Positions 35,021 to 42,151 of a stretch of DNA of 59,861 nucleotides are shown in pieces. Numbering within the stretch: position 1 is the stretch's first letter; every line of letters begins with the position of its first letter. The translations under genes and the position numbers were made by a program. The notes below the pieces were generated by a model. The model did not search any database. It saw nothing but the letters and a program-made list of their open reading frames with translations, and had not been told where the DNA came from. This stretch comes from Desulfuromonadaceae bacterium (lineage in GTDB: Bacteria > Desulfobacterota > Desulfuromonadia > Desulfuromonadales > Syntrophotaleaceae), in assembly GCA_007134025.1 (NCBI GenBank), contig SLLR01000034.1:1-59861 (forward strand), in the 5' to 3' direction.

Positions 35021-36001
35021 TCAGGGTGCCATTTCAGTCGCGTGTTTTCCGTTCATCGCTCCCAGCACTGACAGGGCATAGGCGACCCGGTCTTCGGCGC
35101 AGGCGTGCTTTTTGCGCAGCGATTCGACCCGGCGCAGACGGGGCAGCAGGCCAAAACCGCAGGCGACCTGAATGGAGAGCCCGGGCCGGGCGTTGAGTTC
35201 CAGCAACAGAGGACCCCGTTGCCGGTCGAGAATGATGTCGGTTCCCAGATAGCCCAGTCCGGTCATTTCATAACAGCGGGAGGTGAGCACCAGCAGTTCC
35301 CGCCAGTTGGGGACTTCAATGTCGGTGAACGCTTTGCCGGTATCGGGGTGGCGCTGCAGTGGCAGGGTGCGCTGCACCGCATTCAGGCACTGGCCAGTGG
35401 CCAGATCCAGGCCGACCCCCACCGCTCCCTGATGCAGATTGGCCTTGCCGTCCGAGTCCCGGGTCGCCAGCCGCAGCATGGCCATCACCGGGTATCCCTG
35501 AAACACAATCACCCGCAGGTCGGGAATCCCCTGGTAGGAATAGCCTTCAAAGCGGCCGTCCAGTTCGATCCGTTCCTCGATCATGACAGTGTCCGGCGTG
35601 CCCGCCAGGGAATGGAGTCCGGCGAGGATGTTGGACATGTGCCGCTGAATGTCCTGGAGGGTCAGTTTCGCTCCGGAGGATTTGACGAAAAACTCCCCCT
35701 CACGCCCTCCAATGACCAGAATGCCCTTGCCTCCGGACCCTTTGCACGGCTTGATGACGAATTCGGACATGGACTCGAGCAGGTTGCCGATGTGTTTGAC
35801 CCGGTGTTGTTCCTTGAGGGTAAAGAGCAGCCGGGGCATGGGAATGCCGTGCCGTTTTGCCAGTTCTTTGGTCCTGAGCTTGTCGTCCACCAACTGGTAG
35901 AGACTGCGTCGGTTGTAGCGACCGATGAAATCGATGTTCCGGCAATTCATGCCGAGGATGCCCAGCTCCTGCAGCTGTTTGAGGCCGACCAGCCATCTCA
36001 T
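35021..36001 (-). CDS. RimK-like ATP-grasp ligase (alpha-L-glutamate ligase type)
   Basis: A 326-residue ATP-grasp enzyme that should form an amide bond between an amino acid and a carboxylate. ATP-grasp features are 'FVIKPCKGSGGKGILVI' (lysine plus glycine-rich loop, from about residue 86), 'VMIEERIE' and the Mg2+ site 'LLLELNARPGLSIQ' near residue 285. The N-terminus 'MNCRNIDFIGRYNRRSLYQL' (from about residue 18) is typical of the group named alpha-L-glutamate ligase-like. It is the last gene of a three-gene unit; its ATG overlaps the stop of the upstream gene (ATGA). The substrate is not known. Confidence 0.9.
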   Translation of the reverse strand: MRWLVGLKQLQELGILGMNCRNIDFIGRYNRRSLYQLVDDKLRTKELAKRHGIPMPRLLFTLKEQHRVKHIGNLLESMSEFVIKPCKGSGGKGILVIGGREGEFFVKSSGAKLTLQDIQRHMSNILAGLHSLAGTPDTVMIEERIELDGRFEGYSYQGIPDLRVIVFQGYPVMAMLRLATRDSDGKANLHQGAVGVGLDLATGQCLNAVQRTLPLQRHPDTGKAFTDIEVPNWRELLVLTSRCYEMTGLGYLGTDIILDRQRGPLLLELNARPGLSIQVACGFGLLPRLRRVESLRKKHACAEDRVAYALSVLGAMNGKHATEMAP

Positions 36002-37515
36002 GGGCCGAGTCTCGGAAACAGGGCGCGAAAGCGGCGCAGCTCGGAGAGCTTGTAACCCGTGTAGTTGCCCATCATCAAAATCAGGGCGACGGTGATCAGG
36101 TTGATTTCCGGAAAGTGAAAGCTTAGATGGACCATGAGCGGCCAGCGCATCAGCAGGTAGGCCAGAACCGCCACCAGCAGGCTGCCGCCTCCCTGAACCA
36201 GAACTTCCCGAGAGCCTTCGTCTTCCCATAGGATGGACATGCGTTCAATGGTCCAGGCGATAATGATGATGGGAAAGAACGCCACGGTCATGCCGGTGTT
36301 GAAGCCGAGCTGGTAGCCGAGCAGGCTGGAAAAAAGGATGATGAAAATAACGATGATGACGATGGTGGCGATACGGGCCACCAGCAGCAGGTTGAGGCGG
36401 GAAAGGTAGCCGCGCAGCAGCAGACCGAGGGCGACGATGGCGACAAAGCTCGGCAATCCCGGAAGCAGTGTGGTCTGCAGAAAGGAAAGGGCGATCAGGA
36501 TCGGCATGAAGGTGCCGGAAGAGCGGACCCCAACCATAATCCGCATGAACACCACCACCAGGGCGCCGAGGGGCAGAATCAGCAGCATCCGCAGCATGTT
36601 CTGTTCCTCCACCGGCAGGCTTTGCGGCCCCAGAAAGGCCAGCGGCGACCGGTCGCCCACGGCATAAGGCAGCTGAGTGGCGGCAATGCTCTGGCGCATC
36701 ATGGCAAAGCGGATGGTCGAATGGCTGGCGCCGCGCACTTCCAGCAGCGACTGGCCGTCCTGGTGCCACAACAGGAAGTCGTCCGGGACACCCTCAACAC
36801 CTGTCAGGGGATCAAACTGCCGCCAGTGGCGACCATCGTGGATTTCGATCAGGGGGCTGAGCTGCTGGTTGCGGCGGCCGTCCTCAAGACGCAGACCCAG
36901 AACGATGCGGGTTGGAATCCGGGCGTAGTTGAGCAACTTGGCGAGCAGCGGCGCCAGCGGGGTTTCCCCCAGCAGCAGGGCGGCGTTCTGACCCGGCTCC
37001 GGCTTGTTGAGCAGCTTGATCAACTCCCGGGTCATGCTTTCCGGCGAGCTGGACATGGCATAGGCCTTCTCCAGCAGTTGGCCGGCGGCCAGGGCTTCAG
37101 GGGCGTTCCAATAGATCGGTTCGATTTCCGCGGGCGGGCCGCCTTCGTCAGTCTTTCCCCGGGGTATGGGAATCACCTGCAGCTTGTAGTAGAGGGTCTG
37201 TGGCCCGCTGGCGTAGCGGATCGACCATTCTCCCCGGCGCAGCCCCTTGTTGTCGAGGATGGAAAAACCGTAGCCCGGCGATGCGGCCTGCTCCGAGAAG
37301 ATGGAAAAACCCGGCGGATTATCGGGGAGATCCAAACTGACGGTTACCGGCTCCCCCTGGGCGATGAAGTCGATGCGGGCCTCGGCCAGCCAAACGGGGC
37401 GATGGGTTCCGGGCAGGAACGGAATGCCCATGCGGCTGTGGCGCAGCCAGCCCAGGCCGATGCCGGCCAGGATCAGCAGCGCGACGATGCAGTGAAAAAG
37501 CTTGCGAGAGGTCAT
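35998..37515 (-). CDS. Inactive transglutaminase fused to seven membrane helices
   Basis: A 505-residue membrane protein. One N-terminal helix (6-26) is followed by an extracytoplasmic part of about 290 residues that resembles a transglutaminase-like fold ('LLNYARIPTRIVLGLRLEDG', from about 196; 'EIHDGRHWRQFDPLTG', from about 219), then a run of about seven helices (320-490). The usual Cys of active transglutaminases is absent at the 'LLNYARIPTR' position, so the fold is probably used for binding. Its ATG overlaps the stop of the retropepsin-like gene and its own stop overlaps the ATP-grasp gene, so the three are translated together. The start at 37515 fits the anchor helix. Confidence 0.87.
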   Translation of the reverse strand: MTSRKLFHCIVALLILAGIGLGWLRHSRMGIPFLPGTHRPVWLAEARIDFIAQGEPVTVSLDLPDNPPGFSIFSEQAASPGYGFSILDNKGLRRGEWSIRYASGPQTLYYKLQVIPIPRGKTDEGGPPAEIEPIYWNAPEALAAGQLLEKAYAMSSSPESMTRELIKLLNKPEPGQNAALLLGETPLAPLLAKLLNYARIPTRIVLGLRLEDGRRNQQLSPLIEIHDGRHWRQFDPLTGVEGVPDDFLLWHQDGQSLLEVRGASHSTIRFAMMRQSIAATQLPYAVGDRSPLAFLGPQSLPVEEQNMLRMLLILPLGALVVVFMRIMVGVRSSGTFMPILIALSFLQTTLLPGLPSFVAIVALGLLLRGYLSRLNLLLVARIATIVIIVIFIILFSSLLGYQLGFNTGMTVAFFPIIIIAWTIERMSILWEDEGSREVLVQGGGSLLVAVLAYLLMRWPLMVHLSFHFPEINLITVALILMMGNYTGYKLSELRRFRALFPRLGP

Positions 37516-38378
37516 GGGGCCTTGTTGTTGGTAGAAGGTTCCTTGGGCAGCAGGGGCGGAGCGATATGGGATCGGCTGACATCGACCACGAACAGGTCGA
37601 GGAGAATGTTGCGGCCGATCAGCACCGGGTGCTCGAGATGGCGTCGGTCGGAGAGGGTAAACTGAGCTATCTGGGTGGTGTTGCCCACGGTGACCCCCAT
37701 TGCCACCACCGGACGCCGCTCCCACTCCGGGCTGGTGGCCTGGATGATTCGCACGATGCGCACGATCTTGCGTTCCAGAACCGTGCCCTGGCCGTTTTCA
37801 GGTTGCTCCAGGGTGAATCGTACCCATTCTTCCCCGTTGCGTTCGAAAAACTCCACAGAGCCGGCGTTGAGGGACGAGGTGGTCGCCCCGGTATCGATGC
37901 GGGCCGGAAACTGAATGCCCGGTGGTGACAAAAACACCTTTTCCACCGCTCCCACCAGCTGTTTGCCGTCATGAGCAGTGGCCTGGTAATCAGGCCCTTG
38001 AAGACCCAGTTCCCGGCTTTCACGTAGCCGGTTCTGCAACGGCGCACCGCCCAGTTGCTTCTCTATTCGCGCCGCGCTCTGCAAAACCCGCTCGTGTTGC
38101 TCTTCCAGCGCCTGAAGACGCCCTTCTAAAGCACGGCAGGCATCGTCAGTCTGTTGCAGCAGCCGCTGCTGGCCGGCAGCCACTGTGTCCCGCTGCTCGG
38201 CCAGTTGTCGAGCGACAAACAGTTCCTGGCGGGCGTGGTGTTCATCCATGTGCAGAAACAGTTCGGCCAGGTCGGTCTGTTTCACCAGCAGGTGGTCGGG
38301 AGCGCAGCCGCCGGCGAAAAGCATCAGAGCGGCAAGAAGGCAGCCTCTGCGGAGGATTGTGAGCACAGAGTTGATCAT
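37512..38378 (-). CDS. Retropepsin-like (DUF785) lipoprotein protease
   Basis: A 288-residue protein with a signal sequence and a possible lipobox ending 'FAGGC' (the -3 residue is Ala instead of the common Leu), a roughly 90-residue coiled coil (about 30-120), and a C-terminal retropepsin-like domain of the family often called ATP-dependent zinc protease or RimB-type. The catalytic motif is 'RIDTGATTSSLNA', with 'HPVLIGRNIL' as the later flap strand. It would act in the periplasm, bound to a membrane. It is the first gene of the three-gene unit. The ATG at 38378 is chosen; a TTG at 38387, better spaced from AGGA, is an alternative. Confidence 0.87.
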   Translation of the reverse strand: MINSVLTILRRGCLLAALMLFAGGCAPDHLLVKQTDLAELFLHMDEHHARQELFVARQLAEQRDTVAAGQQRLLQQTDDACRALEGRLQALEEQHERVLQSAARIEKQLGGAPLQNRLRESRELGLQGPDYQATAHDGKQLVGAVEKVFLSPPGIQFPARIDTGATTSSLNAGSVEFFERNGEEWVRFTLEQPENGQGTVLERKIVRIVRIIQATSPEWERRPVVAMGVTVGNTTQIAQFTLSDRRHLEHPVLIGRNILLDLFVVDVSRSHIAPPLLPKEPSTNNKAP

Positions 38379-38514
38379 AAGGGGCAAAATTCCTGGACTG
38401 TGTAAAATCCGCCGGGGCGGCGGATGGGATTCCGGAGAGCCTCAAAAGGCTCGAATCAAAAAAGCAATTATCGTGCCCTAATAAGACAGCATTTCCTTGT
38501 TTGGCAGCGCTCAA

Positions 38515-38549
38515 AGAAAAAAGCTCCCTCGCTTCAGGGGAGCTTTGAA
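38515..38549 (-). terminator. Intrinsic terminator of the ABM gene
   Basis: Minus strand AAAGCTCCCC pairs with GGGAGCTTT around an 8-base loop, followed by TTTTTTC (plus positions 38515-38549). It lies about 20 bases after the monooxygenase stop. Confidence 0.85.
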
Positions 38550-41168: not shown

Positions 41169-41987
41169 TCAGGCGGCCGGTTTGTCCGCGGCTTGAATGA
41201 GATGTACGTCATGTTGCGGGAACGGAATGGAGATGCCTTCCTGGTCGAAACGGGTTTTGATGGTCTCCAGGGTATCAAAATAGGTCGGCCAGTAATCACT
41301 GCCATTGACCCAGGGGCGGAAGGCGAAATTCAGGCTGCTGTCGGCCATTTCCAGCAGCGCCACGACTGGTGCGGGATCTTTGAGGAAACGCTCCTCGGCG
41401 CCGATGATGTCGAGCAGAACCTGTTTTACCTTGCGAATGTCGTCACCGTAGCTGACGCCGATCACCAGGTCCATGCGCCGGGTTCCCTTGGTGCTGTAAT
41501 TGACGATGTTGCCGCCGAGCAGGGCGCCGTTGGGGATGATCACGGTTTTATTGTCGGGAGTCTTCATCTGGGTGCTGAAGATCTTGATTTCCTCGACGGT
41601 TCCGGCAGTGCCGGCACCCTCGATGAAATCTCCGGCCTTGAAGGGTTTGAACAGAACCATCAGGACCCCGGCGGCGAAGTTGGCCAGAGAGCCCTGCAGG
41701 GCGAAACCGACGGCCAGGCCGGCGGCGCCGATGACCGCGATCATCGAAGTGGTTTGAAAGCCGATCTGGTTGAGGGTGGCGATCACCACGAAAACCACTA
41801 GCGCGCCGTATGCCAGGTTGGCGCAGAAGCCGACCAGGGTCGGGTCGACCTGGCGGGCGTTGAGGACTTTGCGCAGCAAACCGGTAAGCAGTTTGCTGAG
41901 CCAGACCCCGATGACCAGGATGAGAATGGCGCCGAGCAGGCGCAGTCCGTACAAGGTTAACCAGGCGTTGATTGTCGACAGATTCAT
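41169..41987 (-). CDS. mscS: Small-conductance mechanosensitive channel MscS
   Basis: A 272-residue channel that opens when the membrane is stretched, releasing solutes after osmotic downshift. Three N-terminal helices (about 12-35, 58-80 and 85-115) lead into the pore-lining TM3, with its Gly/Ala pattern in 'GAAGLAVGFALQGSLANFAAG' (in parts). The beta domain follows ('FKAGDFIEGAGTAGTVEEI', 'VIIPNGALLGG'), then an alpha-beta domain. The length is near that of E. coli MscS (286). The ATG at 41987 follows AAGGAGGA. The upstream frame to 42122 is spurious. Divergent from an MFS transporter gene. Confidence 0.95.
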   Translation of the reverse strand: MNLSTINAWLTLYGLRLLGAILILVIGVWLSKLLTGLLRKVLNARQVDPTLVGFCANLAYGALVVFVVIATLNQIGFQTTSMIAVIGAAGLAVGFALQGSLANFAAGVLMVLFKPFKAGDFIEGAGTAGTVEEIKIFSTQMKTPDNKTVIIPNGALLGGNIVNYSTKGTRRMDLVIGVSYGDDIRKVKQVLLDIIGAEERFLKDPAPVVALLEMADSSLNFAFRPWVNGSDYWPTYFDTLETIKTRFDQEGISIPFPQHDVHLIQAADKPAA

Positions 41988-42151
41988 GTGTCCTCCTTGA
42001 GAGAAAAAGAGCGTGCAGGGGTGACGGGCAGGGGGAAAAGCGCTGTTGCTTTCAAAAAACCTGCTGTGGAAATTAAACAATAAGAACCTCTTTATTGCAA
42101 TGCCTGATGAAGTGAATTGCAACGGTTTTCGGGCTGAAGCGAAAGGACTGT

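Follow-up and report, generated by a model that had tools for sequence, protein, structure and literature searches.

The rlo operon of Pseudomonas aeruginosa was characterised in a 2025 study (PMC12239564), and the background given here is drawn from the accessible parts of that paper. RloA, RloA2 and RloA3 are secreted retropepsins that are redundantly required for growth without salt, and RloA cleaves runs of 8-10 glutamates. Retropepsins are dimeric and have their active site between the subunits, and the D48A, R114A and R137A variants of RloA fail to rescue. Deletion of rloB or rloC rescues the low-salt growth failure of the triple rloA-family mutant, and the operon has effects on survival under osmotic stress, on biofilm and on sensitivity to beta-lactams. 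Neither "lipoprotein" nor "coiled" occurs in the main text of the paper. In Shewanella vesiculosa, disruption of a gene for an inactive-transglutaminase seven-transmembrane (7TM) protein affects vesicle production (PMC12096838, accessible parts). Here we examine a related three-gene operon on a 59,861-nucleotide stretch of DNA, referred to as the window (contig SLLR01000034.1, assembly GCA_007134025.1), from a Desulfuromonadaceae bacterium with a genome of 2.25 Mb in 149 contigs. The trio is an RloABC-type operon and thus belongs to a known system that has a name and a phenotype in P. aeruginosa; what is new is a stalked subtype of RloA and a set of sister operons with an active transglutaminase.

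The window encodes an exported retropepsin with a DTG motif (signal judged by eye), an inactive-transglutaminase 7TM protein and a TIGR02291 ATP-grasp protein, in the co-directional order A-B-C (Table 1). The initial annotation had assigned the products to these families from the letters alone, and the Pfam matches agree with it: Zn_protease (1.8e-35) in RloA, Transglut_i_TM (2.9e-51) and 7TM_transglut (1.6e-95) in RloB, and ATPgrasp_ST (1.6e-89) in RloC. Among the NCBIfam models, RloC matches TIGR02291 (alpha-L-glutamate ligase-like) with 415 bits, above the cut-off of 314. The three minus-strand genes are real and were exactly bounded, with an ATGA overlap at both the A/B and the B/C junction, and the topology that had been proposed also holds when the proteins are read. 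For this stalked subtype we see about an even chance that the operon acts in envelope stress in the following way: RloC makes an acidic peptide product, RloB passes it outward and the tethered RloA trims it.

The RloA of the window has 112 residues between the lipobox Cys and the catalytic domain, most of which are predicted to form one long helix. The block-mean predicted local distance difference test (pLDDT) values in the AlphaFold2 model are 83-87 for residues 41-100 and 59 and 67 at the two ends, and at 1.5 A per residue the helix of residues 34-108 would be ~11 nm long. The catalytic domain of this model is poor and the model was used for the helix only. The DTGA motif lies at residues 162-165 (37884-37895). 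Asp162 is kept, and R222 and R245 correspond to the arginines with which P. aeruginosa RloA binds its substrate (R114 and R137), as mapped by motif and by the 23-residue spacing rather than by direct alignment. There is no Cys in the catalytic domain, and hence no conserved Cys pair that could form a stapling disulfide.

The same plan is common to 26 RloA proteins, in which the stalk is 102 +/- 9.8 residues long (range 80-123). The median pairwise identity is 22.5% in the stalk as compared with 46.7% in the domain, and the mean hydrophobic periodicity of the 26 stalks peaks at 3.5-3.6 residues. None of the 26 has Asp at position +2, and the domain contains no Cys or one Cys in 24 of them; the other two, from locus L195 and the interrupted L089, have two. 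Non-stalked RloA proteins are short secreted proteins, mostly with at least two domain Cys, or lipoproteins with short linkers. In a 69-row tree of RloB, the 26 stalked loci make up one side of a branch with support of 100/99, and none of the 43 rows outside it is stalked (L186 and L202, among the 43, have no adjacent RloA). The tree omits L103, L073, L091, L074, L090, L072, L065 and L064, which are divergent, truncated or long-branched, as well as RloB frames below 450 bits or 480 aa (L203 and L205-L210 among them). Loci were labelled as stalked on the basis of their RloA, by pattern and by reading; L180, which is without DTG, was added by reading, and L177 and L201 matched the lipobox pattern and were read as ordinary signal peptides. 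RloA and RloB are inherited together, so the pattern shows a single origin without loss and not an independent correlation. Judged from the sequences, the stalked lipoprotein RloA is a distinct, newly recognised subtype confined to one RloB clade. It was not described in the literature searched, which excluded preprints and most subscription journals. The stalks probably pair in parallel as a coiled coil, which would also bring the two halves of the retropepsin dimer together in advance.

It is quite unlikely, in our estimation, that the operon is of the ordinary RloABC kind, with a lipoprotein stalk that is a mere spacer and carries no functional meaning. P. aeruginosa RloA is secreted and suffices without a stalk (PMC12239564, accessible parts), so the stalk is dispensable for the basic function, and at five other loci RloA is a lipoprotein whose linker is short (17-59 residues) and broken by P/G, which shows that anchoring is evolutionarily flexible; against this, the stalk stays near its mean length despite the low identity of its sequence and is kept in every row of the clade. 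The clade contains Desulfobacterota and Gammaproteobacteria (Aeromonas, Cellvibrionaceae and Thiomicrospira), and some members of the window's own order have other RloA types (L075, L076, L078, L079 and L080). As the clade spans two phyla while this order also holds the other types, the sequences suggest that the rlo operon was transferred as a unit. Tandem RloA-type retropepsins lie ahead of rloB in L057, L060, L061, L062, L066 and L076, and in 4/6 of these the lipobox pattern is on one of them only.

The periplasmic domain of RloB matches the transglutaminase fold of 3isr_A (Z 14.5, 218 residues, root-mean-square deviation 4.2) and the periplasmic domain of TgpA (Z 6.8, which alone may reflect just a common arrangement); the fold matches cover residues 40-268 only, and a comparison of RloB with solved structures by sequence gave no match. 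In the triad columns of the window protein Asp is kept, His is replaced by Ser and Cys is missing. The sole Cys among the 505 residues, C9, lies in the first membrane helix, so the site is judged to be inactive, as the initial annotation had held; an active transglutaminase site, which it had named as the outcome that would count against it, was not found. Across a 46-row alignment, Cys, His and Asp occur together in L090 only. The dead domain would serve as a periplasmic binding platform, and RloB would take the RloC product at the cytoplasmic face and pass it through the 7TM domain. In RloC, K84, D255, E268 and N270 are each at least 98% conserved among 71 sequences, and we take these to be the catalytic residues from their roles in the ATP-grasp fold. 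In the cytoplasm, RloC would use ATP to build glutamate, or a different acidic amino acid, into a peptide or to attach it to a carrier. That RloC makes polyglutamate and that RloB transports it are conjectures of ours. Three consecutive ATPgrasp_ST genes are present elsewhere in the same genome (G000:C67:4563-7608).

The trio had been expected to be conserved in relatives, and this was borne out. We examined 85 RloB-like loci, of which 74 are canonical. RloA is directly upstream on the same strand in 71 of the 74, and RloC is directly downstream in all 70 whose contig continues, the other four ending at a contig edge; RloC in L088 and L173 was missed by the script, as the open frame starts far upstream, and was counted by hand. 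The A-B-C association is therefore conserved far beyond chance. The set of 85 omits G615, which is below the family cut-off, and the archaeal-looking locus L103 of G530, and a single operon may be represented twice, by its two ends in L091 and L092. The closest of seven named loci found with RloB is on a Desulfuromonadales metagenome-assembled genome (PWVL01000106.1), where RloB is 93% identical. The initial annotation had also read a fixed ratio of products from the ATGA overlaps. This idea was rejected: within the clade of the window the 4-base overlap is present at only 7/26 A/B and 7/26 B/C junctions, as counted with a mechanical choice of start codons. PF14402, with divergent members included, was found in 22/297 genomes of the phylum, 17/244 of the class and 9/58 close relatives, and in 39/185 Gammaproteobacteria (38 above the cut-off), so its distribution is patchy. 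PF05618 is present in 17/17 of the PF14402-positive genomes of the class versus 56/227 of the others, a comparison made by eye.

Beyond the trio, no neighbour recurs among the 44 loci that were compared, a set without the loci from the 185 Gammaproteobacteria; the only neighbour cluster found in more than four of them consists of ABC ATPases (judged from one example) at scattered positions. This bears on a role in peptidoglycan precursors, in which RloC would add or exchange an acidic stem-peptide residue, RloB would flip or insert the variant precursor and RloA would remove it. The rlo mutants do have cell-shape and cell-wall-antibiotic phenotypes, and RloA requires long Glu runs in vitro (both PMC12239564, accessible parts), the latter speaking against such a role together with the absence of any recurrent neighbour. 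ATP-grasp ligases include D-Ala-D-Ala ligase, which is also a weak NCBIfam match of the window RloC. On balance we regard the peptidoglycan explanation as very improbable.

Additionally, a lineage of TG-7TM proteins (TG, transglutaminase) with an intact Cys-His-Asp triad was found, first in L090 and then in L205-L208. A search with four of these proteins gave matches above 400 bits in 8/369 Gammaproteobacteria, and all other matches listed were at or below 248 bits. There are nine sister loci, L090 and L233-L240; of these, L237-L240 take in L208, L207, L205 and L206 in longer stretches. All nine have the triad (L235 reads THQWVE, and in L236, whose gene falls into two frames, the triad lies within one piece). 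The ATP-grasp gene is adjacent in 8/9, among them L236, where it was read by frame, and L240, where its frame is split; in the ninth locus it is fused. The fused protein, at 6475-8991 of L237 (G719) and 3076-5592 of L208, joins Transglut_core, 7TM_transglut and ATPgrasp_ST in 838 aa and physically ties an RloB-like to an RloC-like protein. Together with the shared operon, it suggests that the ATP-grasp protein acts at the 7TM protein's cytoplasmic end. A tetratricopeptide repeat (TPR) protein is next in 9/9 loci and a barrel-like protein is present in 8/9; in four loci there is an upstream TPR protein that reads as lipoprotein-like, and RloA is near the sister operon in L090 only, where it is divergently oriented. 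TPR and barrel proteins are the usual outer part of polymer exporters such as PgaA and AlgK/AlgE, and by this analogy the operon looks like a polymer synthesis and export system. No name was found for it in the literature searched; Iyer et al. 2009, which others reportedly cite for these amidoligases, was also outside its scope.

According to the published genetics, RloA has to remove something that RloB and RloC produce, and by analogy the polyglutamate substrate, the epistasis and the hypoosmotic role may extend to the window system, with product that accumulates unchecked being toxic at low osmolarity. RloA would be lipid-anchored in the outer membrane, with its rigid stalk of ~11 nm holding the protease inward where it trims the product; we infer this location of the lipid and picture the stalk as a ruler across the envelope. 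The proposal of the initial annotation that the ligase makes, the 7TM protein moves and the protease processes a product fits the P. aeruginosa epistasis (PMC12239564, accessible parts) and the natural fusion, and its interpretation is partly supported overall, the product and the transport by RloB still being proposals. A subtype with a single, stalk-tethered RloA would confine the protease to one membrane and gives a prediction of the place at which its substrate arises. The sister operons and the fused protein turn the product of RloBC into a directly testable peptide-polymer question. A wider idea, which we consider rather doubtful, is that TG-7TM and ATP-grasp proteins are the core of a family of machines in the envelope, which would produce an acidic, amide-linked polymer in the cytoplasm and move it across the inner membrane. 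An active transglutaminase would cross-link or attach the polymer ahead of TPR/barrel export, and the Rlo polymer would be a periplasmic osmotic polyanion, similar to the osmoregulated periplasmic glucans, with its length set by RloA, which in the stalked form would cut it at a constant distance from the outer membrane.

A signalling or quality-control circuit is possible, if somewhat unlikely. Here RloC would glutamylate a carrier, lipid or protein, RloB would sense or present it with no transport of polymer, RloA would remove the tag, and the phenotype would come from a mis-tagged cell-wall enzyme or lipoprotein. Dead enzyme domains often act as binding modules, which suits this circuit, and the cytosolic paralogue pair RimBK modifies and trims the protein RpsF (PMC11957791, accessible parts). 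The authors of PMC12239564 decide for neither of the two options and point to enzymes of peptidoglycan. With a cytoplasmic ATP-grasp protein and a periplasmic protease, however, something must still cross the membrane, and the TPR and barrel-like parts of the sister operon also argue against the circuit.

Several observations weigh against the reading in which RloC makes, RloB passes and stalked RloA trims a product, in addition to the sufficiency of stalkless RloA. The window proteins are below the curated NCBIfam cut-offs for RloA3 (114/210 bits), RloA2 (85/250), RloA1 (67/280) and RloB (299.6 bits, cut-off 900) and are for this reason not filed under those Pseudomonas-type names. The adjacent RloA is missing in three canonical loci (L072, L186 and L202). 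L180 (5547-6335, minus strand) has a stalked RloA in which DTG is replaced by DPG; by its sequence this protease is probably inactive, yet its gene is still beside rloBC. The 3.5-residue periodicity is individually significant (p<0.05) in 10/26 stalks only and is absent in L051 and L055. In the model of RloB, 15/21 ten-residue blocks from residue 301 have a pLDDT below 60; this 7TM model is too poor to be searched for folds, so nothing supports a transporter fold. The barrel assignment in the sister operons rests on weak matches, namely EpsL at 5.9e-6 (L205, no Pfam match), OMP_b-brl at 5.9e-5 (L207, below cut-off) and Autotransporter at 0.0074 (L090, below cut-off), and the product of these operons may differ from that of RloABC. 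No experiments on the stalked subtype were found in the literature searched.

Table 1. Genes, protein features and a candidate terminator at the rlo locus of the window.
Feature	Position	Strand	Basis
rloA-type gene for a 288-aa aspartic peptidase of the retropepsin kind, with a lipoprotein signal and a stalk	37512-38378	-	PF05618
Signal peptide with lipobox FAGGC (Cys25) at its end, followed by Ala rather than Asp at +2	38304-38378	-	read from sequence
Predicted stalk helix, residues 34-108	38055-38279	-	AlphaFold2 single helix; length and periodicity
Retropepsin domain from residue 137	37512-37970	-	PF05618, sequence reading
rloB-type gene, N-terminal transmembrane helix, periplasmic inactive transglutaminase domain and 7TM, 505 aa	35998-37515	-	PF14400, PF14402
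Domain of transglutaminase fold (residues 38-280) without the catalytic Cys and His	36676-37404	-	fold match 3isr_A, triad columns
Seven-helix membrane domain	36019-36612	-	PF14402 to residue 499; helices in model, low pLDDT
rloC-type gene, RimK-like ATP-grasp ligase, 326 aa	35021-36001	-	TIGR02291, PF14397
Possible intrinsic terminator of upstream gene (GC stem, 9-nt loop, T run)	38506-38545	-	read from sequence, weak

The terminator candidate in Table 1 could possibly separate the upstream gene from rloABC. Its minimum free energy of -12.6 kcal/mol is not better than that of shuffles, and it is absent from the scan listing, where the loop limit is 8; promoter and terminator scans at the locus gave nothing above chance. 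A foreign island by composition was rejected, as the guanine-cytosine (GC) content of rlo is 61.4% and that of the window 60.0%. A gene for an MscS-type mechanosensitive channel, another osmotic-stress gene, lies 2.8 kb upstream of rloA (41169-42122, minus strand); the idea that such genes are conserved flanks was rejected, as none recurs in the 44 loci. The plasmid collection gave two RloB records, from Aeromonas and Legionella. L102 is a full rloABC on a 54-kb plasmid of Legionella adelaidensis, and L101 (NZ_AP026896.1), a stalked rlo operon of Aeromonas caviae, is labelled as a plasmid yet is 4.94 Mb long and probably a mislabelled chromosome. In L103 (G530:C132), on an archaeal-looking contig of a metagenome-assembled genome with 8% contamination, the ATP-grasp gene adjoins that of a 7TM protein, with an N-terminal part that is extremely rich in D/E/S/T. 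Frames are interrupted in rloB of L070, rloA of L089 and the sister TG-7TM gene of L236, by gene decay or assembly error. Alternative open frames of 592-735 aa extend from rloC far into rloB in another frame in L088 (3060-5267, minus strand), L084 and L081 and are probably a high-GC effect.

The closest described system is RloABC of P. aeruginosa PA14 (PA14_41690/41710/41730; PMC12239564, accessible parts), which shares with the window trio the protein families, the gene order, the predicted compartments, the DTGA motif, the arginines and the dead transglutaminase. The P. aeruginosa RloA proteins have an ordinary signal peptide and short chains, and the two that have been solved are disulfide-stapled, whereas the window RloA is a stalked lipoprotein without domain Cys. 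P. aeruginosa has three RloA proteins; in the window genome there is a single RloA, accompanied by one RimB. The RimB-RimK pair, which carries out the polyglutamylation of ribosomal protein S6 (PMC11957791, accessible parts), similarly combines a retropepsin with an ATP-grasp glutamate ligase but is cytosolic and without a 7TM partner. The window RloA differs from RimB in its signal and lipobox (by reading) and scores 56/200 bits with the RimB model; the separate RimB of the genome (G000:C66:28823-29221) has RimB as its best NCBIfam match (120/200 bits), and its RimK runs off the contig end. The sister operons resemble the window operon in having a homologous 7TM protein and an ATP-grasp protein in the same order, fused in one case, and differ from it in their intact Cys-His-Asp triad and in the TPR and barrel-like proteins that replace the adjacent RloA.

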